Source of the DNA: Rhodothermales bacterium
GTDB taxonomy: Bacteria > Bacteroidota > Rhodothermia > Rhodothermales > VXPQ01
Assembly: GCA_951812345.1 (NCBI GenBank)
Contig: OX638295.1
Span: 496,501-560,500 of the forward strand
Length of the DNA: 64,000 nucleotides
Reading direction: 5' to 3'
The notes under the pieces were generated by a model. The model was not told the origin of the DNA. It saw only the letters and a list, made by a program, of their open reading frames with translations, and made no database searches. How positions within the stretch are numbered: position 1 is the stretch's first letter; every line of letters begins with the position of its first letter. Of this stretch, positions 10,460 through 29,032 are shown piece by piece. A program made the translations under genes and the position numbers.

Positions 10460-10467
10460 CGCTGACC

Positions 10468-10866
10468 ATGTCGAATGCCACGGACATTTCGGAAGGGGCG
10501 CAATGGGTCGAAGGAACGGAGCGTCCGCACGTCGAGCCGGAAAGCATCGAGGCCGGTCAGATATTTGGTTTCGTGATTGTGATCGCGGTCCTCATTGGCC
10601 TGGCGGTCGTAGCGCTTTTTCAGTATACGGACCTTACGGCGCAAGAGGCGCTGGTGGAAGCTGCCGATCAGGGCATTTATCCCGAACTGGACGAAGTACG
10701 CCTGCATGCCACCGGGCTGCTTACGCAGTACGAGGTTCTCGCCGGGACGGAGGGACGGTATCGCATTCCCATAACGCGGGCCATGGAACTGATGGCGCAG
10801 GAGGCGCCGGTCCATCCCGACGAGTTCTATGCCTCCGAGTACATGGCTATCTACCGCCAGAGATGA
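10468..10866 (+). CDS. Small single-helix membrane protein of the act operon
   Basis: This 132-residue protein of unknown function lies between actF and the SCO gene. It has one transmembrane helix at about residues 32-50 (IFGFVIVIAVLIGLAVVALF), a short N-terminal tail and a soluble C-terminal part ending in HPDEFYASEYMAIYRQR. There is no haem, copper or iron-sulfur motif. It is 8 bp from actF and overlaps the next gene by ATGA, so it is embedded in the operon. Related operons often carry a small gene here. It may be an accessory ACIII or supercomplex subunit, but that rests on position only. Confidence 0.75.
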   Translation: MSNATDISEGAQWVEGTERPHVEPESIEAGQIFGFVIVIAVLIGLAVVALFQYTDLTAQEALVEAADQGIYPELDEVRLHATGLLTQYEVLAGTEGRYRIPITRAMELMAQEAPVHPDEFYASEYMAIYRQR

Positions 10867-11753: not shown

Positions 11754-11850
11754 CCCCCGGTTTTTTGCGCTTATATGGCGCCGCTCTTATTCAACGCATG
11801 AATATGTCCGTAGCAGGAGGCCCCGGCTCGGGAAACAGGAATCGGCAACC

Positions 11851-12786
11851 ATGACCGGATCGTTTTGGCTGCCCGATGGCGCGTCGACCCTGTCGTCCGA
11901 AATCGACAGCCTGTTTCACTTTGTAAATTGGGCAAGCATCATCCTTTTCGTAGGGGTGGTGGTAGCTATAGCGTACCTTGCGTATCGCTACCGGCGGCGG
12001 CCCGGCGGGCCCGCTCCGATGCGCGTGAAGCCGAACAAGATGGTGGAAATCTCGTGGGTGGTGCTACCCACGATCCTCGTGCTGATTGTTTTCAATTGGG
12101 GATTCCGGTTGTTCGTCGAGCAGAGCGTGGCGCCGCCGAACGCCTACGAGGTCTATGTGCGCGGCGCCATGTGGAAATGGGATTTCGAGTATCCGACTGG
12201 CGCCGTCACGACCAACGAATTGCACGTACCCGTAGACCGCCCTGTGCGCCTTGTCATGAGCAGCGCCGACGTGCTGCACAGTTTCTTCGTTCCGGCCTTT
12301 CGCGTCAAGCAGGATGTGCTGCCCAAACGGTATTCGGCGGTCTGGTTCGAGGCTACGCGCGTGGATACGTTTCAGGTGTTCTGTACGGAATACTGCGGAA
12401 TGGGGCATTCCGTGATGCTGGCCTCGGTCATTACCCATTCGCAGGGGGATTTCGAGGCATGGCTTGCCTCGGCGGGCGTGGACGAGGACACCCCGCTTCC
12501 CGAGCTGGGCGCGCAACTGTATCAGCAACAGGCTTGCATTGGATGCCACACTCTGGATGGGACGGAGATTATTGGCCCAACCTTCGCGGGATTATACGGA
12601 AAGACCGAAACGCTCGACGACGGGTCCACCGTGGTGGTGGACGACGACTACCTGCGCGAATCCATTGTTGACCCCAATGCAAAGATCGTGCAAGGATATG
12701 CTAATGTGCCTATGCCTGCCGGGTATACTGGCCTCAGCGAGCGGCAATTGTCCGCACTGATTGCCTTTATCCGGGAGCAACAATAA
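11851..12786 (+). CDS. ctaC: caa3-type cytochrome c oxidase subunit II (CuA and fused cytochrome c)
   Basis: The subunit has 311 residues. Two N-terminal membrane helices are followed by the cupredoxin domain with a complete CuA motif, C178-x-E180-x-C182-x3-H186-x2-M189 (CTEYCGMGHSVM). A C-terminal cytochrome c domain has CxxCH at residues 229-233 (CIGCH). That fusion defines the caa3 type. ATG 11851 was chosen over an open upstream extension because it begins just before the first helix. With ACIII directly upstream, electrons can pass from ActA/ActE to this haem c, then CuA and the haem-copper site in subunit I, as in Rhodothermus supercomplexes. Confidence 0.95.
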   Translation: MTGSFWLPDGASTLSSEIDSLFHFVNWASIILFVGVVVAIAYLAYRYRRRPGGPAPMRVKPNKMVEISWVVLPTILVLIVFNWGFRLFVEQSVAPPNAYEVYVRGAMWKWDFEYPTGAVTTNELHVPVDRPVRLVMSSADVLHSFFVPAFRVKQDVLPKRYSAVWFEATRVDTFQVFCTEYCGMGHSVMLASVITHSQGDFEAWLASAGVDEDTPLPELGAQLYQQQACIGCHTLDGTEIIGPTFAGLYGKTETLDDGSTVVVDDDYLRESIVDPNAKIVQGYANVPMPAGYTGLSERQLSALIAFIREQQ

Positions 12787-12834
12787 CGGGCGCGCACGGA
12801 CGCCGCCGTGTATGAAGACGGATCGACGGAATCT

Positions 12835-14553
12835 ATGACGGAAGACATTGATCGGAGCGAAGCAGCGCAGGCTCGGGATGCCGAAGAGCATTCCGGGCAC
12901 GGCGACTACATTACCCATGCGAAAAGCATCAGGTCATGGATGTTTTCCGTGGACCACAAGCGCATCGGTATCCTCTATGCCGTTACTGCAGCGATCGCTT
13001 TCCTTGCAGCAGGCGTCTTCGCATTGCTGGTGCGCGCCGAACTGCTGATACCCGGCGAGACCTTCCTGTCCGCCCAGAGCTACAACCAGTTGTTCTCGCT
13101 CCATGGCATCGTCATGGTGTTCGGGTTCATCATCCCCGCTATCCCGGGTTTTCTGGGCAATTTTCTGTTACCCATTCATCTGGGCGCAAAAGACGTAGCG
13201 TTTCCCCGGCTTAATCTCTTCAGCTACTATCTGTATTTGCTGGGCGTTATTCTCATCATCGTGGCGATGGTGGTCGGCAGTGTGGATACGGGGTGGACCT
13301 TCTACACGCCCTATTCTGCCCGCACGGGCCCCGCGGTGCTGTTTCTGGCCATGGCCGTTTTTATTGCAGGGTTCGCCTCGATTTTCACGGGGATCAATTT
13401 CATCGTTACGGTGCACAAGATGCGCGCGCCGGGCATGACGTGGAATCGCCTTCCGCTTTTTGTCTGGAGCATTTATTCGACGAGCATCGTGCAGGTGCTC
13501 GCCACTCCCGTACTCGGCATCACCGTATTGCTGCTTTTCCTGGAGCGCCTCCTCCAGATCGGCATTTTCGACCCGGCTCTCGGCGGAGATCCGATTCTTT
13601 TCCAGCATTTCTTCTGGTTCTACTCGCATCCGGCGGTATACATCATGATTCTGCCGGGCTTCGGGATCATTTCCGAATTGATCGCGACGTTTTCGAGGCA
13701 GCGCATTTACGGATACATGGCCATTGCGTTGTCTTCCGTGGCCATTGCGATGCTGGGTTTTCTGGTCTGGGGGCATCATATGTTCGTCTCCGGGCAATCC
13801 GTTATCTCCTCGGTCATTTTTTCGCTGATTACGTACCTGATCGGCATTCCGTCGGGGATCAAGGTGTTCAACTGGATCGCCACCATGTACAAGGGGTCCA
13901 TCTCGTTCAAGACCCCTATGCTGTACGCGCTTTCTTTTCTGGTGCTTTTCACGATCGGGGGCGTTACCGGCATCATGGTGGGCGTGCTGGCCGTGGATAT
14001 TCACCTGCATGACACCTATTACGTCGTGGGACATTTTCATTATGTGATGATGGGCGGCACGGTGATCGCACTGCTCGGCGGATTGCATTACTGGTGGCCG
14101 AAAATCACGGGACGCATGTACAACGAGGTGTGCGGGCAGATCGCTGCGTTTCTGATCTTCGTGGGACTGAACCTGACCTTTTTCACGCAACTCGTGCTGG
14201 GATCGCGCGGGATGCCCCGCCGCTATAACGACTACTTGCCCGAGTTCACATTCCTGCATCAGCTTTCCACGATAGGTTCGTGGATTATGGGGCTCGGCCT
14301 CTTTCTGGTGCTGGGATATTTGCTGGTTTCCCTTTTCCGGGGAAAGAAGGCCGGCGCGAATCCATGGGGGGGCGCTACGCTGGAATGGACCCATACGGGG
14401 CCGCGCCCGGATCCTCATAATTTCCATCGGACGCCGTTTGTCACGCGGGGCCCCTACGAGTTTGATCGGATCGGAATAACCCATACCGAAACCGCCGAAG
14501 CAGATCGGGATGCGGACCCTCCGGATGTCGTTCTGAACCAGGACCGGACGTAA
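12835..14553 (+). CDS. ctaD: caa3-type cytochrome c oxidase subunit I (A2 subtype)
   Basis: This is the catalytic subunit with haem a and the a3-CuB site. The 572-residue protein has at least twelve helices, [13 protein letters not shown] at the CuB/tyrosine helix, VWGHHMF with the paired CuB histidines, and [17 protein letters not shown] with the haem a and a3 ligands. SHPAVY, with Tyr-Ser and no glutamate, is the A2-subtype signature. I preferred ATG 12835 to the in-frame GTG at 12808. It sits between ctaC (49 bp) and ctaE (9 bp). Confidence 0.95.
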
Positions 14554-14562
14554 GTAAGCATC

Positions 14563-15231
14563 ATGGCCAATACGGGCACGGCAGAACATACCGCACAGGA
14601 GCGCTCCATGGCGCATCTGAAGCATTACTTCGTTTCGTCCGATCAGCAGTTCGACGCGGCGAAACTCGGGATGTGGCTTTTCCTCATCACGGAGATCCTT
14701 CTTTTCAGCGGGATGTTCGTGGCCTACGCCGTGTATCGTGTCTGGTATCCGGAGGTGTTTGCGATCGCTTCCACCGAGTTGAATCCCTGGCTGGGCGGTC
14801 TGAACACCGTGGTGCTGCTGGCCTCTTCCCTCACGGTGGCGCTGGCCATTCACGCTGCGCAGACCGACAAGCGCAGGGCGCTGGTGATCAACCTGTTTAT
14901 CACGGTGTTGCTGGCCGGCGTGTTCATGGTGGTGAAATACTTCGAGTACACGCACAAATTCCATCTGGGTATCTTTCCCGGCGGAAATTTTGCGTATGCG
15001 GAGATGAACCAGCCGATCGTTCCGATCTTCTTCAGCATCTATTATGTGATGACCGGTATTCACGGGGTGCATGTGCTGGTCGGTATGGGTGTATTAAGTT
15101 GGCTGGGCGTACGGGCGATCCGGGGGGATTTTCACAGCGGGTACTACACGCCTGTGGAGCTTTCCGGTCTGTACTGGCACCTTGTAGACATCATCTGGAT
15201 ATTTCTTTTTCCATTGCTTTATCTCATTTAG
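14563..15231 (+). CDS. ctaE: Cytochrome c oxidase subunit III (caa3 operon)
   Basis: The 222-residue membrane protein has about five helices and subunit III signatures: KLGMWLFLITEILLFSGMF near the N-terminus, a central EYTHKF loop, and ELSGLYWHLVDIIWIFLFPL at the end. Subunit III stabilises subunit I and the proton-uptake side. An alternative internal start exists at ATG 14608. The stop at 15231 is followed closely by the subunit IV gene. Confidence 0.94.
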   Translation: MANTGTAEHTAQERSMAHLKHYFVSSDQQFDAAKLGMWLFLITEILLFSGMFVAYAVYRVWYPEVFAIASTELNPWLGGLNTVVLLASSLTVALAIHAAQTDKRRALVINLFITVLLAGVFMVVKYFEYTHKFHLGIFPGGNFAYAEMNQPIVPIFFSIYYVMTGIHGVHVLVGMGVLSWLGVRAIRGDFHSGYYTPVELSGLYWHLVDIIWIFLFPLLYLI

Positions 15232-16632: not shown

Positions 16633-16700
16633 GTGGATGTCGTGAGGCCGGGAAGGGATAATAAATGTTGCATCAATATCGCAAAATCCCGTCAAAAATT

Positions 16701-16729
16701 TTGCACTCTCGCCGCCGGTTACGTATTCT
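16701..16729 (+). promoter_or_regulatory. Candidate sigma-70-type promoter of the CydA-like operon
   Basis: TTGCAC (16701-16706) and TATTCT (16724-16729) are separated by exactly 17 bp. The predicted transcription start near 16736 leaves a leader of about 40 nt before the ATG at 16776. An imperfect palindrome, TTGC-N9-GCAA (16668-16684), is centred about 60 bp upstream of that start, where an activator of the Crp/Fnr type could bind. This is a match by eye only. Confidence 0.45.
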
Positions 16730-16775
16730 TTGCCGCGAAGCACCCCTTTTTTTACCACGAAGACCAGGGACGCGG

Positions 16776-18521
16776 ATGAAACTGCTTGCGAGGAGATTGC
16801 CCTCCGGGGTTCTCCTGTTTTTGATGCTTGCGGGGTTGGCTCTTGTTGCGTTCTGGACGCCCGATGCGTGGGCTCAGGAAGCCCCCGGGCAAGTCGAGTA
16901 TCGCTCCTTTCCCGTCGTAGGCAGCCGCGTGGTGGTTTGGGTGATCGCCCAGTTGCATCTCATGTTCGGGGCGTTCGTGCTCGCCGTCCCGATGTTCGCG
17001 CTCACTATCGAGTTCATCGGTTTCCGCAACGGCGACAAGCGCTACGACGATCTGGCGTATGAATTCACGCGCCTTTTGTCGGTCTCTTTCTCCTTTACGG
17101 CCAGTCTCGGCGCGCTCCTGACCTTCTTCCTGTTCATTCTGTATCCGCGTTTGATGGAGTATCTGGTCTCCATCTTCGACTGGACATTCATGCTGTACGC
17201 ATGCGTCTTCTTTCTCGAAGCCGTCTTCCTGTACAGTTATTATTACGGATGGGGCAAGATGCCGAAGTGGTTGCACCTGGTCATCGGTCTCTGTCTCAAC
17301 CTGGTAGGCATCGCCATCATTTTCATTGCCGATTCCTGGCTCACCTTCATGAATTCCCCCAACGGCATCGACGCCGAAGGGAATCTGCTCAGCACCTGGG
17401 ACGCGATCAACAACTTCACGTGGATGCCCATCAACATCCACCGGCTCATCGCGAATATCTGCTTCGGAGGGTCGATCGCGGCGGCGTACGGGGCCTACAA
17501 GTTTCTTGGCGCGAAGACCGACGAAGAGCGGGCGCACTACGACTGGATGGGCTATATGGGCAATTTTATCGCGATCGCAGCGCTGCTCCCGCTGCCGTTC
17601 GCGGGCTATTGGCTGGGCCGTGAAATCTACGCCTTTTCCCAGAGCCTGGGCATTGCGCTCATGGGCGGCACGTTCTCCTGGCTGTTTATCATTCAGGCTG
17701 TGCTTATTGGCAACCTGTTCCTTGCAGCCAACTATTACCTGTGGCTGAGCATGGAGCGCATTCACGGGGCGGAGCGCTACCGCAAGTTCACCAAATGGTT
17801 GCTTGCTTCCATTACCGTCTGTTTCATTGTCTGGGCCACGCCGCATTCCCTGGTCGCCACGGTCGAGGAAGCCCGCGCTATGGGCGGGTCTCATCACCCG
17901 ATCCTGAATGTGCTGGGCGTGATGTCGGCCAAGAACACTGCCGTCAACGTGCTCATTCTCACCACATACCTGAGCTTTCTGTTTTACCGACGGGCCAACA
18001 AGGAGGCGACCGTTTCGTGGGCGAAAACCGGCAATATCGTGCAGTTCGGCATCCTGGCGGTGGTCGTGGGCGTTGTCATCTTCCTCGGGGTCTACGGCTA
18101 CTTTGTGGAGGCGTCCGTGCGGATCGGTTTGTCCATCCCGCAGGTGAGTCTGGTGCTCTTCGCCATGATTTCGATCACGATCATCGATGTCTTCATGTTC
18201 AGGAAGGCGAAGATTCTGGGACCGATCGAGTGGGGCAAAATTCCCAACCGGGCGCAGTATGCGCTCTTTTTCATTGCCATTACGTTTGCATGGACGATGG
18301 GCCTTATGGGCTACGTTCGTTCGGGCATTCGCCAGCACTGGCACGTCTACGGGGTTATGCGCGACACATCGGTGGATGCGTTTACCCCCACGCTGGGCTA
18401 CGCCGCCAATGTGGTGTCTGTGACGGTGCTGATTTTCTTTGCGTTTATCGCGGTCGTGTTTTTCCTTTCCAGTCTCGCGGGTAAGAAAAAACTCGATGCC
18501 GGGGAGGGGACATCGTCATGA
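16776..18521 (+). CDS. CydA-like (cytochrome bd superfamily) membrane oxidase subunit with N-terminal signal
   Basis: The protein has 581 residues. A cleavable-looking signal (LLFLMLAGLALVAFWTPDAWA) precedes a CydA-like core. QLHLMFGAFVLAVPM matches the first CydA helix with its haem-ligand histidine. FFLEAVFLYSYYYGW matches the helix carrying the second conserved glutamate, though the glutamate eight residues earlier is Leu here. NIHRLIAN matches the haem b558 histidine region. GIRQHWHVYGVM stands where CydA has GRQPW, and the glutamate three residues before that arginine is Ser here. No cydB is present. Instead three cytochrome c genes follow, starting with a 4-bp overlap, so electrons probably come from haem c rather than quinol. 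Whether it reduces oxygen is not shown by the sequence. Confidence 0.85.
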   Translation: MKLLARRLPSGVLLFLMLAGLALVAFWTPDAWAQEAPGQVEYRSFPVVGSRVVVWVIAQLHLMFGAFVLAVPMFALTIEFIGFRNGDKRYDDLAYEFTRLLSVSFSFTASLGALLTFFLFILYPRLMEYLVSIFDWTFMLYACVFFLEAVFLYSYYYGWGKMPKWLHLVIGLCLNLVGIAIIFIADSWLTFMNSPNGIDAEGNLLSTWDAINNFTWMPINIHRLIANICFGGSIAAAYGAYKFLGAKTDEERAHYDWMGYMGNFIAIAALLPLPFAGYWLGREIYAFSQSLGIALMGGTFSWLFIIQAVLIGNLFLAANYYLWLSMERIHGAERYRKFTKWLLASITVCFIVWATPHSLVATVEEARAMGGSHHPILNVLGVMSAKNTAVNVLILTTYLSFLFYRRANKEATVSWAKTGNIVQFGILAVVVGVVIFLGVYGYFVEASVRIGLSIPQVSLVLFAMISITIIDVFMFRKAKILGPIEWGKIPNRAQYALFFIAITFAWTMGLMGYVRSGIRQHWHVYGVMRDTSVDAFTPTLGYAANVVSVTVLIFFAFIAVVFFLSSLAGKKKLDAGEGTSS

Positions 18522-19342
18522 TGAACGCCATCAAGATATGCGTCTTTACCGTTCTCGTGGCCGCATTCTATAGCTACGTCAGCCAGATGGTGCCGCAGAC
18601 GGTGACGTATCCGCCCGAGGATACGGAACTCGGAGCCGACATGACCACGGAGGATCTGGTAGCCGCCGGCGAGGAAATCGCTTCGGGGAAGGGCACGTGT
18701 CTTACGTGTCATACCGTATCCGGGGAAACCGGAGGGCGTTTCCCCGATCTGGCGAACATCGGGCTGGTGGCTGCCGAGCGAAAAGAAGGCTTCAGCGACG
18801 TGGAGTACCTGGCCGAGTCGCTCTATGACCCGAATGAATATATTGTCGAAGGCTTTCTGCCCGGCATGACCCCTATCTCCGACCCGCCCATCGACCTGAA
18901 CGATCAGGAAATCCTTGCGGTGATTGCGTATCTCCAGAGTCTTGGCGGCGCCGCCACGGTTACGCTGGACACGGAGCTGCGCTGGCAGAGCGAAGAAAAT
19001 TCGGCCTCCGCATCGACTGCTGCGCAGGCAAGCGCGTCCGCGGCGCCTTCTTCAGAAAATTTGTCCGGGGAAGAACTGTTTACCATGTACGCCTGTGGCG
19101 TATGCCACAGCCTCACCGATCCCACGCCTCTGCTGGGTCCCAGTTTGTACAATGTGGGAAACGAGCTTTCGACCGCCGAGATATACGAGGCGATCATGGA
19201 TCCGGACGCCGTGGTATCGGAGGAATTTGTGGCGGGTCTGATGACGGCGCAACTGAGCGCCGTCGGATTCTACGACAAGATATCGTCCGGACAGCTCAAA
19301 ACGCTGGTTGATTACCTGGCGTCGCAAAAGGGAGGATCATGA
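18518..19342 (+). CDS. Membrane-anchored dihaem cytochrome c
   Basis: The protein has 274 residues. An N-terminal helix (about 5-24) anchors two class I cytochrome c domains. The first haem site is CLTCH at residues 61-65; the second is CGVCH at 193-197. The domains are joined by a low-complexity Ser/Ala linker of about 25 residues. TPISDPPIDLN and the region around VAGLMTAQ may supply the distal haem ligands. The gene overlaps the CydA-like gene by 4 bp and the next cytochrome gene by 4 bp, so it is very likely a subunit or electron donor of that complex on the periplasmic side. Confidence 0.88.
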   Translation: MMNAIKICVFTVLVAAFYSYVSQMVPQTVTYPPEDTELGADMTTEDLVAAGEEIASGKGTCLTCHTVSGETGGRFPDLANIGLVAAERKEGFSDVEYLAESLYDPNEYIVEGFLPGMTPISDPPIDLNDQEILAVIAYLQSLGGAATVTLDTELRWQSEENSASASTAAQASASAAPSSENLSGEELFTMYACGVCHSLTDPTPLLGPSLYNVGNELSTAEIYEAIMDPDAVVSEEFVAGLMTAQLSAVGFYDKISSGQLKTLVDYLASQKGGS

Positions 19343-20169
19343 ACATCATTATCCTGCTTGTGGTGTGTGCAGGGCTCGTAGCGTTGCGCTTCGTGCCGAA
19401 GATAAACATCCTCGGCTGGTTGGCGGGGTGGTGGATTGCTGTATTCGTTTTTCTGCGCTGGGGCATCGATCCGCCGCTGCCCACCTCGATCCAGGGGATG
19501 TTCGTCGCCATCCTCACGCTTGCGTTGTTGGCGTATTTATCGGCGAATTCGGCGCATTTCCGGTTTGTACTGGACCGGTTCGTGGCATTCACGACGCAGA
19601 AAAAGTATACGATCCCCCTGTTGGCGGTCATTGCGGTGCTGCCTTGTCTTGTGGCGCTCCGCGTGTATTTCGACGTGACGGAAGGGCCGGCGCCTCCTCT
19701 CAGCAGCCGCACGATTCATCCGCCGCCGCCTACCAGTATCGAAGTGGCCGGGAATACGATCGATCTTGTCAACGACGACAATCCGTACCGCGCCCTTGAA
19801 ACGGAAGACCCGGCAGCGTTCGAGGAGCATGTGGAGAACGGGCGCCGCGTGTACTACGAAAACTGCGTGTACTGCCACGGGGACGATATGGCGGGAGACG
19901 GCCTCTTCGCCCACGGGTTCGACCCCATTCCCGCGAATTTCCAGGACGCCACGACCATTGCCATGCTGCAGGAAGGCTACATTTTCTGGCGCATCGCCAA
20001 GGGCGGTCCGGGTCTGCCGAGCGAATCCACGCCCTGGCTTTCGGCCATGCCTGCCTGGGAAGACTTCCTCTCGGAAGAAGATATGTGGGATGTGACGCTT
20101 TTCCTGTACGATTTCACCGGACACCGACCGCGGGCGCGGGAGGATCATGGGGGGGGTGGGGACCATTAG
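19339..20169 (+). CDS. Membrane cytochrome c (monohaem) with three N-terminal helices
   Basis: The protein has 276 residues. Three hydrophobic segments fill the first 115 residues. A periplasmic domain follows with one CxxCH at 176-180 (CVYCHGDDMAGDGLF), and MPAW downstream is a likely methionine ligand. The protein ends in a Gly/His-rich tail. It overlaps the dihaem cytochrome gene by ATGA. The membrane part resembles nothing I can name; together with the CydA-like protein it may replace the missing CydB as the second membrane subunit, which is inference from gene order. Confidence 0.85.
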   Translation: MNIIILLVVCAGLVALRFVPKINILGWLAGWWIAVFVFLRWGIDPPLPTSIQGMFVAILTLALLAYLSANSAHFRFVLDRFVAFTTQKKYTIPLLAVIAVLPCLVALRVYFDVTEGPAPPLSSRTIHPPPPTSIEVAGNTIDLVNDDNPYRALETEDPAAFEEHVENGRRVYYENCVYCHGDDMAGDGLFAHGFDPIPANFQDATTIAMLQEGYIFWRIAKGGPGLPSESTPWLSAMPAWEDFLSEEDMWDVTLFLYDFTGHRPRAREDHGGGGDH

Positions 20170-20221
20170 AAATAACACCGACATAGCGATTCGCCCTGCT
20201 CGCCGGGAAAGACGCGCCGTT

Positions 20222-21760
20222 ATGCGTTTTTCCCGATGGGGCGCTATGTCGTGCGCTCTGGGAGCGTGTTTGTGCATCGCATTGCTTCCCCTGACCGTCT
20301 CGGCCCAACCCGCGCCCGACCTTGGCACCGACGAACAGCGCGAGGCCGGTCGCCTGCTGTACATGGACAAATGCGCGCAGTGTCACGGAGAAACCGGTAA
20401 AGGGGATGGGGTTGCGGCGCCCTTTATGCGCCCGATGCCCCGCGACTTTACGGCAGGCATCTACAAGGTGCGCACCACGCCGAGCGGCCAGTTGCCTACG
20501 GATGACGACCTCGTGCGGGTGATTCGCGACGGTATGCCTTACACGGGCATGCCTGCCTGGCCGCAGCTGAACGACGACGAAATCCGCAACCTTGTTTACT
20601 ACATAAAAACCTTTAACGACGATTTCTCCGGGCCGTACGGCGTTCCCGATGTAGTCGAGATTCCTGACCCTCCGTCGTTCAGCGAAGCGTCTGCTGAACG
20701 GGGGCGCGTGGTCTACGAAGAGAATCAGTGTTTCGATTGCCATGGCATGGCCGGCCGCGGCGACGGGCCTTCCGCTGTAACGCTGCAAGAGCAATGGGGC
20801 AACCATATCCGCCCCGCCGATCTTACGAAGCGCTGGACCTTCATAGGAGGCAACACGCGCGAGGACATCTATCGCACGTTCACGACGGGTCTCGACGGTT
20901 CGCCCATGCCGTCTTACAGCATTACCCCGATCGAAGACAGCTGGGCCCTCGTCGATTACGTCTATTCGCTGTCGCAGGACGAGCCCGATTATGCGACCTC
21001 TGCGACGGCGCAGTATGCAAACGATCCCGTCGACCCGGTGCAGGGCAGGGCAGCTTTCGGCGAGGAACGCGGCGCCTATTTTCCCGTGGTCGGACAGGTC
21101 ATTGAATCCGGACGGTCGTTTATGCCCGGCGTAGACGGCATCGAGATGAAAGCGCGCTACAATGCGGACGAGATCGCCATTCTTCTTTCATGGCACGACA
21201 TGTCCGCGGAGACGATGGGGAGCAATGCCCCGGATATGGAAGTTCCGCCCACGGAGCAGGTCGTTCGGGATACCGTGACAAGCATTTGGTCCGATGCGGT
21301 CGCCATACAGTTTCCCCAGGAACTTGCGCCGGGAGGTCTGCCGTATTTCCTTTTCGGGGACGCAAGACAGCCGGTCGATCTGTGGTTCGCCGATCTGGCT
21401 TCGGGAGAAGGCCGTTCGTACGTCGGACGCGGGAGTGGTAACCTGCTCGCTGGCGAAACCTCCCCGTCCGTCCGTGCGACCTACGAGGACGGTGCATGGA
21501 CCGCTGTCTTCACCATGCCGCGCGACGAGCGTTTTGCGGAAGATACTTTCGTCCCGATCGCCTTCTCGGTATGGGACGGTTTCAACGACGAACGGGGCAA
21601 TCGCCGGGGCGTCACGGGATGGTACTATATGTACCTCGAGCCCTCCGAGCGTCCTTCGCCGGTGATGCCCATGCTGCGCGCCGCCGGGCTCACGCTTCTT
21701 GTTCTCCTGAGCATCGTTGGCTTGGTACGCTTCCGGCATCGCACCTCCGTTCCCGCCTGA
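20222..21760 (+). CDS. Dihaem cytochrome c fused to an ethylbenzene-dehydrogenase-like haem-binding domain
   Basis: ATG 20222 gives a 512-residue protein with a signal peptide (CLCIALLPLTVSA). Two cytochrome c domains follow, with haem sites at 51-55 (CAQCHGETGKGDG) and 170-174 (CFDCHGMAGRGDG) and methionine-ligand-like motifs GMPYTGMPAW and GSPMPSY. From about residue 330 the sequence (SIWSDAVAIQFPQEL, PYFLFGDARQPVDLW) resembles the b-haem-binding gamma subunit of ethylbenzene/DMSO dehydrogenases. A C-terminal helix anchors it. It would be a periplasmic three-haem electron carrier. The open frame upstream overlaps the previous gene and looks non-coding. Confidence 0.83.
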   Translation: MRFSRWGAMSCALGACLCIALLPLTVSAQPAPDLGTDEQREAGRLLYMDKCAQCHGETGKGDGVAAPFMRPMPRDFTAGIYKVRTTPSGQLPTDDDLVRVIRDGMPYTGMPAWPQLNDDEIRNLVYYIKTFNDDFSGPYGVPDVVEIPDPPSFSEASAERGRVVYEENQCFDCHGMAGRGDGPSAVTLQEQWGNHIRPADLTKRWTFIGGNTREDIYRTFTTGLDGSPMPSYSITPIEDSWALVDYVYSLSQDEPDYATSATAQYANDPVDPVQGRAAFGEERGAYFPVVGQVIESGRSFMPGVDGIEMKARYNADEIAILLSWHDMSAETMGSNAPDMEVPPTEQVVRDTVTSIWSDAVAIQFPQELAPGGLPYFLFGDARQPVDLWFADLASGEGRSYVGRGSGNLLAGETSPSVRATYEDGAWTAVFTMPRDERFAEDTFVPIAFSVWDGFNDERGNRRGVTGWYYMYLEPSERPSPVMPMLRAAGLTLLVLLSIVGLVRFRHRTSVPA

Positions 21761-21787: not shown

Positions 21788-23092
21788 ATGGAAGCCGCCC
21801 GTTCCCTGTCCTTCCTGTCTTCTTCCGGTGGATACCGTCCCTCGCTCGTTTCCTGGAATCTGACCAGGAAATGCAATCTCAAGTGCCCCCATTGCTATAT
21901 GGAAGGGGGTACCGCCGAAGAAAACGAATTGACCACGGAAGAATGTCTTGCGCTGATCGACGAGATGGAAGCGCTCGGCACGGAGATGCTCATTCTTACC
22001 GGCGGGGAGCCGCTTTTGCGCCGTGACATCTACGAGATTGCGCAGACAGCCTCTGCAAAGGGAATGTGGGTGGTCATGGGCACGAACGGGGTCATGGTCA
22101 ATGATTTCGTTGCCCGCAAGATGGTGGAATGCGGTGTCAAGGGGGTTGGCATCAGCATCGATTCCATCGACCCGGATAAGCACAACGCCTTTCGCGGTGG
22201 CCCGAACGCCTGGGAGCATTCGGTGCGCGCCCTCGAAATATGTCGCCGGCATGGCCTCGAAGTGCTCGTGCAAACGACCGTCATGGACATGAACCGGGAT
22301 GAAATTCCGGAACTCATGGCGTTTGCGCGGGAGAAAGGCGCCTGGTCCTTTAACCTGTATTTTCTGGTGCAGACGGGCCGGGGACAGGAGATGAACGATC
22401 TTTCCGCCGCCGACACAGATGCGATGCTCCGGGAAATGGTGAAGGTGCAGGACGAGCACCGTCCCATGCTGGTTCGCTCGAAATGCGCCCCGCAATTCAA
22501 GCAGATCGCGTACGACGAGGGGCTTGGCGGACTGGAGAGCGGCGGCTGCATGGCCGGTACGCAATATTGCCGCATCACGCCGGGCGGGAATGTCACGCCG
22601 TGCCCGTACATGACGGTGGTAGCCGGAAACGTCCGCGAACAGTCTTTCGCCGAGATATGGACTTCTTCTCCCGTGTTGACGGATTTACGCGATCCTTCCC
22701 GGCTCAAGGGCAAATGCGGCGCATGCGAGTTCAACGAACTCTGCGGCGGTTGCCGCTGCCGGGCTCAGGCCTCTTTTGAGGACTATCTTGCCGAAGATCC
22801 GGCCTGTCTTTACCAGCCGACCGGCAGGACACTCGAACGATACGATATAGAGTGGTCTCCCGAAGCGCAAAAGCGGCTCGACCGTATCCCGATCTCCTTT
22901 ATTCGCGACAAAGTCCGTAAGGGCCTTGAAGCGTATGCGGACCGGCATGGCGTACGTCGCATCTCCGCCGGCGTCATGCAGGAAGCTCTTGCAGGCATGG
23001 ATCGGGGGGCGCCGTCTTTTTCGGCGACCACTGCGAAACCGTCGGACTCCGGGGTTATTAAAGAACCCGTTACCCCGGAACGATTCCTATAA
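21788..23092 (+). CDS. Radical SAM/SPASM protein, AhbD/NirJ-like, with C-terminal PCP_red-like domain
   Basis: The protein has 434 residues. The radical SAM cluster motif is C29-x3-C33-x2-C36 (CNLKCPHC), and LTGGEPLLRRD is the GGE motif. A SPASM region has many cysteines (CMAGTQYC, CGACEFNELCGGCRC) for auxiliary iron-sulfur clusters. YFLVQTGRGQEM is like AhbD, which decarboxylates iron-coproporphyrin, and NirJ, which modifies the d1 haem precursor. Residues about 360-405 (WSPEAQKRLDRIP, then GVRRISAGVMQEA) resemble the small PCP_red domain. The likely role is tetrapyrrole side-chain chemistry for the CydA-like complex, but the substrate cannot be read from sequence. Confidence 0.85.
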   Translation: MEAARSLSFLSSSGGYRPSLVSWNLTRKCNLKCPHCYMEGGTAEENELTTEECLALIDEMEALGTEMLILTGGEPLLRRDIYEIAQTASAKGMWVVMGTNGVMVNDFVARKMVECGVKGVGISIDSIDPDKHNAFRGGPNAWEHSVRALEICRRHGLEVLVQTTVMDMNRDEIPELMAFAREKGAWSFNLYFLVQTGRGQEMNDLSAADTDAMLREMVKVQDEHRPMLVRSKCAPQFKQIAYDEGLGGLESGGCMAGTQYCRITPGGNVTPCPYMTVVAGNVREQSFAEIWTSSPVLTDLRDPSRLKGKCGACEFNELCGGCRCRAQASFEDYLAEDPACLYQPTGRTLERYDIEWSPEAQKRLDRIPISFIRDKVRKGLEAYADRHGVRRISAGVMQEALAGMDRGAPSFSATTAKPSDSGVIKEPVTPERFL

Positions 23093-23124: not shown

Positions 23125-23919
23125 ATGGAAAAGCTTGACGCAAAAACGCTCACAGAGCAGGTGCAGGTAACCAACGGGGTCGCCCGTCTCAAAAAGAACG
23201 GCGCCGACCGGAATCTTGACGTCATTGAGCTCCCGGAGAAATTCATCCGGTGGCAGCTCGACTACAAGCACAGCATTTACGACGCCATCGAGCAGGATCA
23301 GTACATCGCGTTCAACGCGGGGCATCTGCCTGTTGTGGCCACATGGGCTGACGATGCGCTTGTTCCCAACCTGGCCAACAAGGGCGTAGGGTTCACTCCC
23401 AAGGATGAACATATCGATTATTACCTCGAACTGGTGGAAGATGCCGTTGCTCAGATACAGGCATTACCGCCCCATGCCGTGAACGAGACGCGCGATCTGC
23501 GCATCCGGACGGCCCGCGAGTTGTATTCCCATCCCGAGCATATCGACTGGCGGCGCGTCGGGCTCCTCGAAATTTTTGAGGGATCCACGCTCAAAAATCT
23601 TGTCGAGAATCCCTTTGCGTCCGTGCTTTGGACCGGCAATTCCCCGGTGTTCGTCAGTTATCAGGCGGACTGTGTGGTGGAAATCATCGAGCCGGAAGAC
23701 AAACGGTACCGTTTCCCCTGGGCGATGCGCCGCCTGTTCGAATACGAGCCATTCCATGTGGTCCAGACCATTTATCCTTATTCGTACTGCTTCTGGATCT
23801 ACCGCTGGAAGGACAAGACGCCCAAACGCCGTTATCCCGGAAAACGGAGCGACAACACTGTCAACGAGGCCGGCGGCGTGGTCGACAAACAGGCCATGAA
23901 CGGACAGGGTCAGGCGTAG
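23125..23919 (+). CDS. Conserved-looking protein of unknown function in the CydA-like operon
   Basis: This 264-residue soluble protein is one I do not recognise. There is no signal peptide or membrane segment. It is rich in aromatic residues towards the C-terminus (FPWAMRRLFEYEPFHVV, YPYSYCFWIYRWKDK) and contains two isolated cysteines. The C-terminal 30 residues look disordered. It begins 32 bp after the radical SAM gene and is followed after 52 bp by a ferredoxin gene, so it probably belongs to the same maturation or electron-supply group. Codon use and GC look like its neighbours. Confidence 0.7.
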   Translation: MEKLDAKTLTEQVQVTNGVARLKKNGADRNLDVIELPEKFIRWQLDYKHSIYDAIEQDQYIAFNAGHLPVVATWADDALVPNLANKGVGFTPKDEHIDYYLELVEDAVAQIQALPPHAVNETRDLRIRTARELYSHPEHIDWRRVGLLEIFEGSTLKNLVENPFASVLWTGNSPVFVSYQADCVVEIIEPEDKRYRFPWAMRRLFEYEPFHVVQTIYPYSYCFWIYRWKDKTPKRRYPGKRSDNTVNEAGGVVDKQAMNGQGQA

Positions 23920-23971: not shown

Positions 23972-24187
23972 ATGCCTCACATGATCACAGATGCCTGCGC
24001 GCAATGCAGCCTGTGCGTGGATGTGTGTCCGATCAGCGCGATCTCGCCCGGAGATCCGATCTACGTCATTGACGATACCTGTTGCGATTTTATGGAATGT
24101 GTCGTTGAGTGCCCTGAGGAAGCCATCGTGCCGATTCCGGACTGGAAGGAACCTGTCGCCGTATCCGATAGGGAGGTGGCGTCATGA
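23972..24187 (+). CDS. Small ferredoxin with one standard and one atypical 4Fe-4S motif
   Basis: The protein has 71 residues. The first cluster motif is standard: C9-x2-C12-x2-C15-x3-C19-P. The second is C37-C38-x4-C43-x3-C47-P; the usual second cysteine (position 40) is Phe, and C38 may take its place. The overall length and ending resemble YfhL-type 2[4Fe-4S] ferredoxins. It overlaps the next gene by ATGA. It probably supplies electrons to the radical SAM enzyme or a PCP_red protein in the same run. Confidence 0.87.
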   Translation: MPHMITDACAQCSLCVDVCPISAISPGDPIYVIDDTCCDFMECVVECPEEAIVPIPDWKEPVAVSDREVAS

Positions 24188-24780
24188 CCGGATCGCTGGT
24201 AACCCGTTTCGTGTTGCAGGATTTTGTGGATGCGGCGGCCCACAGTTATGCCGCTTCGGCTCCCGAGCAGGGGCGTGCCGGGCGGTTGCTTCTGCTTGGG
24301 GAGACCTCGCAAGTCCAGGAAGGATGGCGGTCGTGGACGGACGCCGTGCGCCTGTATGCCGATGTGGCGTACAGGCCCGAATGGGATGCGGCCGCGGCCC
24401 GCGCCGCTGCGCAGTTCGGCGTGGCGATCGAGCAGGAATTTCCGGGCGATCTGATTCCCTTACCGGCAGGAGCCGAACAACGGCACCGGCTTGTCCGGGA
24501 CCTGCCGGACTCCGGGTTGAGTTTGTGGCATTTCGATCCGTACTCGGTGGCGTTCCGGCACGTGGCCCGCGGCGACGAACCGGACTACCATATTGTGCTG
24601 GCCTATATGAAACATGGCTGGATCGAGAAGGAAGAGATGGACGAACGCCTCACGGCGCTTCTTCCCGAGTTTTCCATGGAAACGATCGCACAGGACCCGG
24701 CGGAGTTTCGCCGTAAGTACAAGGGTTTGCTTCAAATGGGAGAGCGCCTCGAACCCGGCACCGTACACCGTCCTTTCTGA
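24184..24780 (+). CDS. Unknown soluble protein
   Basis: The protein has 198 residues, with no membrane segment and no metal motif. I cannot place it in a family. It is translationally coupled to the ferredoxin (4-bp overlap). Features visible are an Ala-rich helix (AAAARAAAQFGVAIEQEF), a central SLWHFDPYSVAFRHVARG stretch, and a helical C-terminal third (EKEEMDERLTALLPEFSMET). A cytoplasmic role alongside the ferredoxin is inferred from context only. Confidence 0.68.
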   Translation: MTGSLVTRFVLQDFVDAAAHSYAASAPEQGRAGRLLLLGETSQVQEGWRSWTDAVRLYADVAYRPEWDAAAARAAAQFGVAIEQEFPGDLIPLPAGAEQRHRLVRDLPDSGLSLWHFDPYSVAFRHVARGDEPDYHIVLAYMKHGWIEKEEMDERLTALLPEFSMETIAQDPAEFRRKYKGLLQMGERLEPGTVHRPF

Positions 24781-24794
24781 TTCCGCCTGCCATC

Positions 24795-25199
24795 ATGGAG
24801 CCGTCCCGGGACATAGCGCCGCCTGATGCGCTCGAAGCGCGTGCCGCCGAGTTGGCCGCGAGGCGTCTTGACTGGAACGAACTGGATTTTGTAGGCTGGA
24901 AGGAATTTCGCCGCATGGCGCCGGCCATTGTACGCATGGAAACGGGACGCCTGGAGCGAATCATGGAAGAGGCCGAGCCGGGCAGCGATTCCTACAACGC
25001 GATGGTGCGGGCGCGTTTCGAGATGAATGCCTTCGCCGAGGGACTGGAAGAGGCGGAACGTTCTTGCCTCCCGAGCCGCGCCGACCGCCTCCGGCGCGCC
25101 CTGCTTGCCGTTTCGCTCCTTGCAGAAGATTCCGAAACGCTGCGATATGTTATGTACCGCCTCACGTACATTTACGACCGCCTCAAACTGATCTATTAG
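24795..25199 (+). CDS. Unknown small helical protein
   Basis: The protein has 134 residues and is predicted to be mostly helical and charged (ARAAELAARRLDWNELDF, RARFEMNAFAEGLEEAER), ending in a Tyr-rich stretch (RYVMYRLTYIYDRLKLIY). There are no cysteine motifs; a single Cys sits near residue 92. It starts 15 bp after the preceding gene and ends 6 bp before the universal-stress fusion gene, so it is part of the operon. Function unknown. Confidence 0.65.
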   Translation: MEPSRDIAPPDALEARAAELAARRLDWNELDFVGWKEFRRMAPAIVRMETGRLERIMEEAEPGSDSYNAMVRARFEMNAFAEGLEEAERSCLPSRADRLRRALLAVSLLAEDSETLRYVMYRLTYIYDRLKLIY

Positions 25200-25204
25200 C
25201 CGTT

Positions 25205-27139
25205 ATGTACAAGACTATATTCGTTCCGGTCGACAATTCGGACCATTCGATGGCGAGCATCGACCTTGCCATCGAACTGGCGAAGCGGTTCGATGGGGAG
25301 CTCGTGGGCAGCCATGCCTACGCAGCCCGTATGCACGATTACCGCTTCAAGCAGATGGAGTTTACGCTGCCCGAGGAGTATCTCGTTGAAGAGGAGATGG
25401 AAAAACAGCGGAAGGTGCACGACACGCTCATCACGATGGGTCTCGAACTGATTTCGGATTCGTACCTGACCGTGATGGACAAACGGTGCCGCGAGGAAAA
25501 ATTGCCCTTCCAGCCGAAGATGTACGATGGAAAGAACTGGAAGATCATCGTACAGGACATCGAGGAGAGCGACTACGATCTGGTCGTGATGGGGGCGCTC
25601 GGTCTCGGCGCCGTTCGCGACAGTGTGCTGGGTAGCGTATGCTCTCGGGTCGTGCGGCGGGCGCGCACCGACATGCTTGTCGTCAAGAACACGGATGCCT
25701 TCGACCATCAGATGAACGGGCACGCCGTGGGCGAACCCGATGGCGGGCACATCGTGGTGGCCGTTGACGGCAGCCCCGAGTCTTTCGCCGGTCTGAAAAC
25801 GGCCCTCGAACTGGGCCGGAAGCTGGACAAGCGCGTGGAGGCGGTGTCGGTCTACGACCCCTACCTGCATTACGCGATGTTCAACAGCATCGTGCATGTG
25901 CTGACCGAAAAGGCTTCGAAGGTATTCCGGTTCAAGGAGCAGGAGCAGCTCCACGAAGAGGTTATCGACACGGGGCTTGCGAAGATATACCAGTCGCATC
26001 TCGAAGTGGCGCATCGCGTTGCCGCCGAAGAGGGCGTGGACCTGAAGATCACGCTGCTCGACGGCAAGGCCTTCGACAAGATTCTCCAGTACGTGCGCCG
26101 CGAAAAGCCCTGGCTGCTTGTCATGGGTCGCATCGGGGTGCATAGCGACGAAGACATGGACATCGGCAGCAATACGGAAAACCTGCTGCGGATGGTTTCC
26201 TGTAATGTGTTGTTGTCGAGCAGGCGGTACACGCCCCCGCTCGACGTGCGGGCCGAAGAATCCATGATCTGGACGGACGAGGCCACGGCCATTCTCAATA
26301 CGGCTCCCGATTTTGCCCGCAACATTGCGCGTACGACGATCCATCGGTGGGCCATGGAACGTGGCCACTCCGTGATCACTCAAAAGGTGGTCGAGCAGGC
26401 GATGGCGACCATTCTGCCGGAATCCGCCATGCGATCTATGGGAATCATTGCCGAATCCGTGGCTCGCGAAAACATTGCCGCCGTCGATGAAGTGACGTAC
26501 GTGTGCAGCCGGTGCGGCTACGCGGCGCGCGGATTCAAGCCCGCCGTGTGTGCTGTCTGCGGGGCCGCTCCCGAGGAGTTTCAGGAAATCGACAAGGAGG
26601 CGCTCCGCAAGCTGGCGCCGCTCGAAGGCGCCGTCGAAGAGGTCGAAACCTTCGACAAGAAGAAGATCAAATGGACGCGGGATGCTCGCGAACTGCTCAG
26701 GAAGGTCCCTGACGGGTACCAGATGCGCCGCGCCCGCGCGCAGATCGAAAAGAGCACGCGTGTCAAGGGACTCGATACGATCACCCGCGACATGGTGGCT
26801 GCGGCAGTGAGCGATTTACTCGAGGATACTTCGGTGCTTTCTGCGCCCGGCTCCGGGTTGAAGGAGAATCCGGCAGAGCAGGCTCCGGAACGGGAATCCG
26901 TTGCTGTCGAATTGATCGACAAGGGGGCATACAAGTGGACGCCGGACGCTTGGGCTCGCCTCGAACGGGTCCCCGAAGGATTTATGCGCGACAAGACGAA
27001 GGGGCGGATGGAAACGGCCGCAGACGGGCATAACACCACTATCGTCACGCTGGAGATTGCCGAAGAAGGGCTGGAAGTGTCCCGGAAAGCCATGGAAGAG
27101 GCCATTCGCAAGCAGCAGGAGGAAAAGGCCGCGTCGTGA
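25205..27139 (+). CDS. Tandem universal-stress-protein domains fused to rubredoxin-like and three PCP_red-like domains
   Basis: The protein has 644 residues. ATG 25205 was chosen because it begins exactly at a UspA domain (MYKTIFVPVDNSDHSMASID); the longer open frame overlaps the previous gene. Two UspA-like domains span about 1-170 and 178-345; VVMGALGLGAVRDSVLGSV is the nucleotide-binding loop of the first. The C-terminal 300 residues hold PCP_red-like units at about 354-400 (IWTDEATAIL), 488-535 (IKWTRDARELL) and 576-625 (YKWTPDAWARL). Between the first two is a rubredoxin-like zinc/iron site, C434, C437, C449, C452. This may be a nucleotide-responsive redox or scaffold protein for haem maturation. 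The architecture is seen directly; the function is inferred. Confidence 0.85.
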   Translation: MYKTIFVPVDNSDHSMASIDLAIELAKRFDGELVGSHAYAARMHDYRFKQMEFTLPEEYLVEEEMEKQRKVHDTLITMGLELISDSYLTVMDKRCREEKLPFQPKMYDGKNWKIIVQDIEESDYDLVVMGALGLGAVRDSVLGSVCSRVVRRARTDMLVVKNTDAFDHQMNGHAVGEPDGGHIVVAVDGSPESFAGLKTALELGRKLDKRVEAVSVYDPYLHYAMFNSIVHVLTEKASKVFRFKEQEQLHEEVIDTGLAKIYQSHLEVAHRVAAEEGVDLKITLLDGKAFDKILQYVRREKPWLLVMGRIGVHSDEDMDIGSNTENLLRMVSCNVLLSSRRYTPPLDVRAEESMIWTDEATAILNTAPDFARNIARTTIHRWAMERGHSVITQKVVEQAMATILPESAMRSMGIIAESVARENIAAVDEVTYVCSRCGYAARGFKPAVCAVCGAAPEEFQEIDKEALRKLAPLEGAVEEVETFDKKKIKWTRDARELLRKVPDGYQMRRARAQIEKSTRVKGLDTITRDMVAAAVSDLLEDTSVLSAPGSGLKENPAEQAPERESVAVELIDKGAYKWTPDAWARLERVPEGFMRDKTKGRMETAADGHNTTIVTLEIAEEGLEVSRKAMEEAIRKQQEEKAAS

Positions 27140-27160
27140 CGAAGGCCCTGGGGGGTGTGG

Positions 27161-28054
27161 ATGAAAACCTGGCACGATATAGCAACTGATGGGGGTTCCG
27201 ATGTGGCGGGCCAGGTGGCGGTGCAGGCCGACCGGCTTGCGGAACGTCTCAGCGATATTCGCTATATCGTCGCTGTAATGAGCGGCAAGGGAGGGGTTGG
27301 AAAGAGCACTGTGGCGGTGAATCTTGCGGCAGCGCTGGCTCGCAATGGCGCGCGCATCGGTCTCGTAGATGGGGATATCAACGGTCCATCCCTCGGACGC
27401 ATGACCGGCGTGCAGGCGACGACCCCGCCACAACGCACAGGAGGGGCTGTTTCTCCTCCCGAAACAACGTTGGGCGTACGCGTCATGTCCATGGCTCTGT
27501 TTTTGCGCGACGAGACGACGCCCGTAACATGGGATGCCCCGTCCCAATCCGGCGGGGCCGCCTGGCGCGGGCTCCGCGAGGCAGGCGCATTGCGGGAGCT
27601 TATTGCGGATACCGCATGGGGCGCGCTGGATATGCTCCTTGTCGATCTGCCGCCCGGCTCGGATCGTTTGCCGACGCTTGCCGATGTGGCGCCGCGCATC
27701 GATGCGGCCGTTGTGGTTACCATTCCTTCGGCAGTGGCCCTCGATGTGGTAGGTCGCTCCGTGCGCATGATTCAGCAACACCTCGATGTGTCGTCGCTGG
27801 GGCTTGTCGAAAATATGGCGTCGCATGCTTGCCCGCATTGCGGACAGGCAGATCCGCTGTATCCGCCAGGCCGTACGGATCGGTTGGCCAGGACCCTCGA
27901 TGTGCCCGTGCTGGCTCGTATCCCCTTTGATCCTGTTCTCGGCATGGCTGCCGATGAAGGCCATTCATACGTGTACGAACATCCGGATCGCCCGGCCGCG
28001 TGCGCCTTCACTGAACTGGCCGATCAACTTAAACTTCTGCTGGATGCCTCATGA
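27161..28054 (+). CDS. Mrp/NBP35-family P-loop ATPase (iron-sulfur carrier type)
   Basis: The protein has 297 residues. A deviant Walker A, MSGKGGVGKST (residues 40-50), with DGDINGPS and DMLLVDLPPGS, places it in the MinD/Mrp group. C224-x2-C227 (CPHCG) matches the CxxC by which Mrp-type proteins bind a bridging [4Fe-4S] cluster. The central switch region is more diverged than in housekeeping Mrp, and the N-terminal DUF59 domain is absent. ATG 27161 is preferred to GTG 27155. It overlaps the next gene by ATGA. The likely role is cluster delivery to the radical SAM, ferredoxin and rubredoxin-like proteins nearby. Confidence 0.88.
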   Translation: MKTWHDIATDGGSDVAGQVAVQADRLAERLSDIRYIVAVMSGKGGVGKSTVAVNLAAALARNGARIGLVDGDINGPSLGRMTGVQATTPPQRTGGAVSPPETTLGVRVMSMALFLRDETTPVTWDAPSQSGGAAWRGLREAGALRELIADTAWGALDMLLVDLPPGSDRLPTLADVAPRIDAAVVVTIPSAVALDVVGRSVRMIQQHLDVSSLGLVENMASHACPHCGQADPLYPPGRTDRLARTLDVPVLARIPFDPVLGMAADEGHSYVYEHPDRPAACAFTELADQLKLLLDAS

Positions 28055-28530
28055 AATTTCTTTGCGTGGAATGTGACGAGGCCATGAGCCTCGCCGAAAC
28101 GCGCGGTCCCGACCGCGGCTCCATGACGGTGATTTTCGGTTGCCCCGTGTGCGGCAGGCAAACGGCCATGCTGACCAATGCAAGCGAGACGCAGGTGGTG
28201 CGCTCTCTTGGCGTGAAGATCGGGGGGCAAGCTGTGTCTGCCGAGCCTATGGAAGGCATACGGACCGGACTGGCGGCCTCGTCGGTCGGGGTTTCCGGTC
28301 CTGGTGCGGAAGGCGGGGCTTCGAAATGTCCGTTTACAGGCATGGTCAACGAAGCCTTTGTACGCAGCGACATGCCCTGGACGGAGGGGGCGCGCCAGCG
28401 CATGGAGAATATCCCTGCTTCTGCCCGCGGCATGGTCATGCAAAGCGTGGAGCGCTATGCCGAAGCGGAAGGACTCGCCGAAGTCACCGAGACCGTCCTG
28501 GACCGGGCGCGCAGCGGCATGGGCATGTAA
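28051..28530 (+). CDS. Zinc-ribbon protein with C-terminal PCP_red-like domain
   Basis: The protein has 159 residues. Two CxxC pairs, C5/C8 and C31/C34 (CPVCG), form a probable zinc or iron ribbon at the N-terminus. A Gly/Ala-rich linker follows, with KCPFTG in it. Residues about 109-157 (MPWTEGARQRMENIP, then VERYAEAEGLAEVTETV) are a fifth PCP_red-like unit in this operon. The gene is translationally coupled to the Mrp-like ATPase. The stop is directly followed by a solo MITE end (28532-28571). Confidence 0.78.
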   Translation: MKFLCVECDEAMSLAETRGPDRGSMTVIFGCPVCGRQTAMLTNASETQVVRSLGVKIGGQAVSAEPMEGIRTGLAASSVGVSGPGAEGGASKCPFTGMVNEAFVRSDMPWTEGARQRMENIPASARGMVMQSVERYAEAEGLAEVTETVLDRARSGMGM

Positions 28531-28579: not shown

Positions 28580-29032
28580 ATGTTCACTTTTCGCGCCGTC
28601 GTTCTATGGATTCACCTGGCGGCGATCATCGTCTGGGTGGGCGGGATGATCGTCGTACCGTTTGTGGCGATGCCCGCCGTGCGCCGGTTTGGGGCCGAAC
28701 ACCTTGATCCCGGACGCGCCGCTACGCTTATCGAGACGCTGGTGCGCCGGTTCCAGCGGTTCAGCAGGGAGCTTTTCTTCACTATTCTGCTGACAGGGAT
28801 TTTCAATCTCATCAATGCGGGGTGGCTGACGAACTTCAGCTACCCGTCCGCTTATCTCCAACTGGTTGGCGCCAAGTTCGTCCTGTTCCTTACGATGGGC
28901 GTGAACCAGGCATGGTACAGCCTGGCGCTCGTGCCCCGGGGGAAAACGCGGACGGCCCTGTGGTCTGCGCTTGTCAACGCCGCACTTGCTGCGGTCGTGT
29001 TGTACCTGGGGCTCAGGTTGCGATTCGGATGA
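28580..29032 (+). CDS. CopD-like integral membrane protein
   Basis: The protein has 150 residues and four hydrophobic helices. LWIHLAAIIVWVGGMIV at the N-terminus is the CopD/DUF420-like histidine helix, and WYSLALVPRG follows in the third loop. Members of this group are linked with copper or haem handling in membranes. It is the last plus-strand gene of the CydA-like cluster, 49 bp after the zinc-ribbon gene, with a degenerate MITE end between them. Its 3' end overlaps the convergent gene by 20 bp. Confidence 0.72.
   Translation: MFTFRAVVLWIHLAAIIVWVGGMIVVPFVAMPAVRRFGAEHLDPGRAATLIETLVRRFQRFSRELFFTILLTGIFNLINAGWLTNFSYPSAYLQLVGAKFVLFLTMGVNQAWYSLALVPRGKTRTALWSALVNAALAAVVLYLGLRLRFG

Follow-up and report, generated by a model that had tools for sequence, protein, structure and literature searches.

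A Universal Stress Domain Fusion with PCP_red Units as a Candidate Maturation Factor for Noncanonical bd-Like CydA Complexes

Introduction

In a stretch of 64,000 nt from a Rhodothermales bacterium (contig OX638295.1; hereafter the window, meaning this stretch in its full length), one gene encodes two universal stress protein (Usp) domains, three PCP_red units, and a rubredoxin-like site in a single polypeptide next to genes for an oxidase-like complex. This raises the question of whether the protein is genuine and, if so, what it does there. Here, we describe its domains, its distribution, and its partner genes, and weigh the functions that these would allow.

Domain Architecture of the Fusion

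The fusion and its domains are located as follows, all on the plus strand and in window coordinates (genome coordinates of the genome-scale Pfam scans minus 496,500):

25205–27139, +: Usp-Usp-PCP_red-rubredoxin-PCP_red-PCP_red fusion, 644 aa
25205–25687, +: Usp domain 1, G2xG9xGS motif GALGLGAVRDSVLGS, inserted conserved helices with H37, H44, and H72
25748–26215, +: Usp domain 2, G2xG9xGS motif GRIGVHSDEDMDIGS, inserted conserved helices with H222 and H250
26270–26401, +: PCP_red unit 1 (Pfam), residues 356–399
26498–26581, +: rubrerythrin-type rubredoxin knuckle, residues 432–459, with C434, C437, C449, and C452
26672–26806, +: PCP_red unit 2 (Pfam)
26936–27064, +: PCP_red unit 3 (Pfam)

The gene is a single open reading frame with an ATG at 25205, a stop at 27139, and no internal stop codons, and Pfam revealed the order Usp, Usp, PCP_red, rubredoxin-like knuckle, PCP_red, PCP_red. 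The two Usp domains (residues 1–161 and the next c. 160 residues) matched with an E-value of 1.4e-40 and 139.6 bits (Pfam cut-off 24) and the three PCP_red units with an E-value of 1.3e-26 and 92.8 bits (cut-off 32.5), so that both the tandem UspA domains and the three PCP_red units of the original prediction turned out to be real. It had also placed a rubredoxin-like site formed by four cysteines between PCP_red units. These cysteines are present as two CxxC pairs, located precisely after unit 1 and before units 2 and 3; C434 and C437 are conserved in 81 of 81 homologues and C449 and C452 in 80 of 81, the exception being a gap in a sequence that stops at a contig edge (L019). In the window fusion, the knuckle remained below the Pfam cut-off (18.8 bits vs. 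26.5; E-value 0.0011), and the same knuckle type passed it in a relative of c. 900 aa (44.8 bits). Judged from the sequence, the bound metal could equally be zinc or redox-active iron.

The G2xG9xG(S/T) motif that characterizes ATP-binding Usp proteins occurs in each of the two Usp domains of the window fusion, and likewise in both domains of most of the 34 relatives examined. By this motif the pair fits the ATP-binding class, and nucleotide binding is predicted. An AlphaFold model of the fusion (mean pLDDT 73, pTM 0.50) matched tandem Usp proteins, the top TM match being TTHA0350, which was solved with ATP (target TM 0.83). By our reading of the alignment, each Usp domain seems to contain a helical insertion that is absent or shorter in ordinary Usp proteins. 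The family-invariant residues located in or near these insertions, which include H37, H44, H72, H222, H250, and H313, are retained even by relatives with just 32–35% identity, and more than 150 columns were invariant across 20 diverse sequences. A Pfam scan of the whole 2.82-Mb genome revealed no Usp domains other than the two of the fusion, and the fusion operon also accounts for all five PCP_red domains encoded there.

Distribution and Variants

Scanning of GTDB genomes returned 107 loci, 80 of which encode the fusion with 45–98% identity. It was found in Rhodothermales, in Calditrichia (Calditrichota), in a single Marinimicrobia MAG, and in some 65 genomes of the Nitrospira type, including the complete chromosome of N. 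defluvii. Apart from one contig-truncated case, the 80 loci align from residue 1 or 2 to residue 634–644. An artificial join of two genes at 26200–26300, raised as a caveat in the original prediction, is excluded, since the frame is unbroken over the Usp/PCP_red junction at these loci in several phyla, and an assembly artefact or a chance fusion is likewise ruled out by this conserved full-length frame. The domain order, which had been thought to correspond to no standard protein, is not unique to the window genome and is standard in Nitrospira.

Relatives of the fusion were found as tandem Usp proteins only (360–389 aa), as Usp-Usp-PCP_red proteins without rubredoxin (463–562 aa), as full fusions, and as versions of c. 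900 aa with five PCP_red stretches and several CxxC pairs. The latter (L132:5578–8307, L133:5979–8681, and L134:6459–9155) carry six CxxC motifs, with the five PCP_red stretches scanned in L132, and adjoin a separate PCP_red-repeat protein. In a tree of the Usp region, rooted by midpoint only, the tandem-only forms constituted one deep branch (100/100), and the rubredoxin-less forms (94/91) were nested among the full ones. This nesting points to at least one loss of the rubredoxin, which is therefore not essential, and a stepwise accretion from tandem Usp via PCP_red to rubredoxin was dropped in favor of loss, as far as a midpoint root suggests it.

The bd-Like Complex and Its Co-occurrence with the Fusion

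Upstream of the fusion, the window harbors the following genes:

16665–18521, +: noncanonical bd-like CydA protein, start codon uncertain
18518–19342, +: diheme cytochrome c of the bd-like complex
19339–20169, +: monoheme cytochrome c of the bd-like complex
20147–21760, +: alternative-NxrC-like subunit, two cytochrome c and ethylbenzene dehydrogenase/DMSO reductase II heme-b domains

The CydA-like protein, both cytochromes c, and the diheme alternative NxrC are thus encoded in a single cluster. According to the passages of PMC6606698 on N. moscoviensis, bd-like_3 and alt_NxrC_2 form a cluster with two cytochromes c that is conserved in Nitrospina and anammox bacteria, and the relevant passages of PMC3578206 describe bd-like proteins as having kept a portion of canonical CydA and the heme-b ligands, as lacking the quinol-binding residues, and as "enigmatic" in function. 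The passages of both papers on this cluster make no mention of a Usp fusion or a PCP_red radical SAM protein. For Kuenenia, the table of the nxr cluster in PMC6423088 lists uspA (kustd1706) together with cydA (kustd1712), a pairing that we regard as a suggestive parallel only.

In the phylum of the window (296 genomes), the fusion and the bd-like CydA occur together in eight of eight genomes and in none of the 288 others. The CydA-like gene of these eight genomes shares 72–79% identity with that of the window, and the remaining CydA matches of the phylum (E-values of c. 1e-20 to 1e-25) look canonical. Likewise, both genes are found in the same five of 40 Calditrichota genomes and in none of the other 35. 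Among 198 Nitrospirota genomes, 83 harbored the fusion or a relative and 84 a CydA-like gene, with both in 81 and neither in 112 (Fisher p 3.6e-49, uncorrected for kinship, many of the genomes being related Nitrospira). Two genomes were fusion-only and three CydA-only, one of the latter (G331) possessing a contig-cut copy (L162). As exceptions there remain two MAGs that have the fusion but lack a CydA-like match, two in which the situation is reversed, and a Marinimicrobia MAG of 1.9 Mb in which the fusion and the radical SAM gene are present without any CydA-like match.

In Nitrospira, the CydA-like genes are located away from the fusion; in N. defluvii, the fusion lies at c. 0.52 Mb and the CydA-like genes lie at c. 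0.87 and c. 3.26 Mb. Since the genes co-occur there although unlinked, linkage or hitchhiking is no explanation. The tie to the neighboring oxidase-like complex that had been predicted is strongly supported by this co-occurrence in three phyla, including non-adjacent genes in Nitrospira, and on genomic grounds the fusion accompanies noncanonical bd-like CydA complexes.

Several further arrangements were observed around these genes. The tandem-only loci L140 and L141 adjoin a bd-like cydA, two cytochromes c, and a radical SAM gene. At L140 (109–3558) and L159 (8017–9998), the bd-like cluster adjoins DMSO-reductase type II alpha, beta, and gamma subunits (one contig), and at L141 (2–2397) it adjoins a molybdopterin subunit and a chaperone, so that in tandem-Usp-only Nitrospirota the oxidoreductase and the bd-like complex apparently share one operon. 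Just upstream of the bd-like cluster, the window (10254–15231) also carries SCO-like, COX2-cytochrome c, and heme-copper oxidase subunit I and III genes; the genome would accordingly possess a conventional cytochrome oxidase as well, with subunits I and III as putative assignments.

The Radical SAM Partner and Other Neighbors

Between the complex and the fusion, and downstream of the latter, we identified the following genes:

21788–23092, +: NirJ2/AhbD-like radical SAM/SPASM protein with C-terminal PCP_red (22853–22987), constant partner
23125–23919, +: 264-aa protein of unassigned family
24184–24780, +: 198-aa protein without Pfam or NCBIfam match
24795–25199, +: 134-aa protein, stopping 5 nt ahead of the fusion
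27155–28054, +: Mrp/NBP35-type (NUBPL) P-loop iron-sulfur carrier-like ATPase, 15 nt downstream of the fusion
28051–28530, +: zinc-ribbon-like protein with C-terminal PCP_red (28378–28512)
28580–29032, +: small CopD-like membrane protein, sub-threshold Pfam match

Of 100 loci that encode the fusion or one of its relatives, 95 have a radical SAM gene on the same strand, usually adjacent, and three of the other five are contig ends. The product of this gene has a CxxxCxxC motif and a SPASM domain. In the window, in Nitrospira, and in the deep relatives, the top models were NirJ2 and AhbD, which belong to heme d1 and heme b, respectively; they outscore peptide maturases by more than 130 bits. In the window and in the deep relatives, the scores stay well below the equivalog cut-offs of 500, the window protein reaching 354.6 bits for NirJ2 and 307.4 bits for AhbD. 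The window genome also has hemE, hemF, hemH, and hemL, the usual oxygen-dependent heme b genes, so that ordinary heme b does not depend on the radical SAM enzyme. This disfavors a role as ordinary heme b synthase and argues for a special product, its substrate probably being heme or a heme precursor. Enzymes of the NirJ/AhbD type remove or convert propionate side chains (reviewed in PMC7242693).

A C-terminal PCP_red was detected on the radical SAM protein of the window and on the Nitrospira sequences scanned, and most members scanned overall have PCP_red. Its placement varies by lineage, with three units on the radical SAM protein at L138 and four on a small separate neighbor at L132. Such shifting among neighbors suggests that fusion and radical SAM protein share a complex, and different carriers in different lineages are as expected if the two are partners. 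PCP_red is also found on BchB and on chlorite-dismutase-family heme proteins, supporting its reading as a recurrent domain of tetrapyrrole proteins. Chlorophyll synthesis was rejected as a role, since PCP_red is confined to the fusion operon and the match to BchB is limited to the tail.

As separate observations, other Nitrospirota MAGs carry PCP_red fused to a chlorite-dismutase-family domain (L188:3036–4061, L189:2240–3256, and L194:3083–4117; the first two Pfam-scanned, the third assigned by sequence resemblance), and many Nitrospira have a UbiE-type methyltransferase and a B12-binding radical SAM gene directly upstream of the fusion (L041:7272–9835), the latter with a slr0320-type top match below the cut-off. 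Downstream of the fusion, the ATPase of the Mrp/NBP35 type and the PCP_red protein with the zinc ribbon would fit an operon for iron-sulfur and cofactor handling, and relatives of the CopD-like protein adjoin the fusion in Nitrospira too. Members of the 264-aa family are located beside tandem-Usp genes in distant Nitrospirota (L142, L143, L150, and L159); one distant member revealed a weak PNPOx_N match, and that of L159 adjoins DMSO-reductase II subunits.

Proposed Function and Alternatives

Altogether, we propose, with a probability of about one half, that the fusion is a dedicated cytoplasmic maturation or assembly factor for the complex of bd-like CydA, cytochrome c, and alternative NxrC, working with the radical SAM enzyme; it would probably be needed for building this complex. 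The tandem Usp core would bind ATP and act as a nucleotide-dependent switch or scaffold, while the PCP_red units, common to both proteins, may join them and/or contact the tetrapyrrole substrate, a contact that we infer from the recurrent fusion of this domain. The radical SAM enzyme would alter heme or a heme precursor, which would then be handed to the bd-like complex, and the rubredoxin knuckle would be an optional add-on that either holds zinc in a structural role or relays electrons to the radical SAM enzyme. More tentatively, the module of fusion and PCP_red radical SAM protein may make and install a modified heme or another cofactor derived from heme, as yet undescribed, in bd-like complexes, including those of the nitrite-oxidizing Nitrospira, with the stress-protein fold as an ATP-dependent cofactor handler.

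The fusion could instead be a sensor of ATP, energy, or redox state that regulates the complex or the radical SAM enzyme by nucleotide level and builds nothing. Tandem Usp proteins are thought to be nucleotide-dependent regulators, the model resembles TTHA0350, UspE, and Rv2623, both G2xG9xG(S/T) motifs are kept even in the deep tandem-Usp-only relatives, and the co-occurrence with the bd-like complex would fit equally well. However, a pure sensor leaves the constant radical SAM partner and the common PCP_red units unexplained, and the Pfam scan detected neither a DNA-binding nor a kinase domain in the fusion, so that we consider this reading rather unlikely.

It also seems improbable that a peptide or protein is the target of the radical SAM/SPASM partner, e.g., for a cross-link in CydA or a cytochrome, with the fusion presenting the substrate. 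SPASM domains typically occur in maturases of peptides and proteins, and sequence matches among solved structures include PqqE, SkfB, and the anaerobic sulfatase maturase; yet the score lead of the NirJ2/AhbD models and the recurrence of PCP_red on tetrapyrrole enzymes point elsewhere, and no small precursor peptide gene was recognized, though without a dedicated search.

Similarly doubtful is the rubredoxin site as the heart of the fusion, passing electrons to the radical SAM enzyme or the oxidase. Its four cysteines are near-invariant in the full-length clade, the c. 900-aa relatives multiply the CxxC motifs to six, and radical SAM enzymes require a reductant. Against this, both the rubredoxin-less fused clade and the lineage without the whole C-terminal arm still possess a bd-like CydA as well as the radical SAM partner, and because these simpler relatives retain the partner, the rubredoxin is not core. 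In addition, the top match is a rubrerythrin-type knuckle below the cut-off, and c-type cytochromes are assembled outside the cytoplasm, apart from a cytoplasmic Usp protein. Of the two roles originally predicted, cofactor insertion is thus compatible with the constant NirJ2/AhbD-type partner, whereas electron delivery is unsupported as a core function.

Very improbable is a general stress protein that came to lie in a respiratory island by chance. Usp domains are common and often lie within respiratory gene regions, but the unlinked co-occurrence in Nitrospira, the constant partner, the whole-length identity across phyla, and the status as sole Usp protein of the genome all disfavor it.

A gene pair present in nearly every genome with these bd-like oxidases, linked or not, offers a direct handle on their assembly and cofactor, and if our proposal of a maturation factor is correct, Usp domains, usually vague in function, would gain a concrete partner and task. 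In the literature searched, which covered few subscription papers, we found no description of the fusion/radical SAM module or its architecture.

Comparison with Known Systems

The gene content of the N. moscoviensis bd-like_3/alt_NxrC_2 cluster, as given in the passages of PMC6606698 and PMC3578206 on it, is matched by the cluster in the window. With the tandem Usp proteins TTHA0350, UspE/YdaA, and Rv2623, the fusion shares two Usp domains with the ATP motif in both, but it adds long conserved helical insertions with family-invariant histidines in both domains, a C-terminal PCP_red/rubredoxin arm, and dedicated partner genes. BchB of the dark-operative protochlorophyllide reductase (2KRU, 3AEK) has the same C-terminal PCP_red family; in contrast, the fusion is without the nitrogenase-like catalytic domain and matches in the PCP_red tail only (63 bits vs. 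509). Finally, the radical SAM partner resembles NirJ2 and AhbD in its top-scoring models, its CxxxCxxC motif, and its SPASM domain, but differs from them in its scores (355 and 307 bits vs. 500) and in carrying a C-terminal PCP_red.
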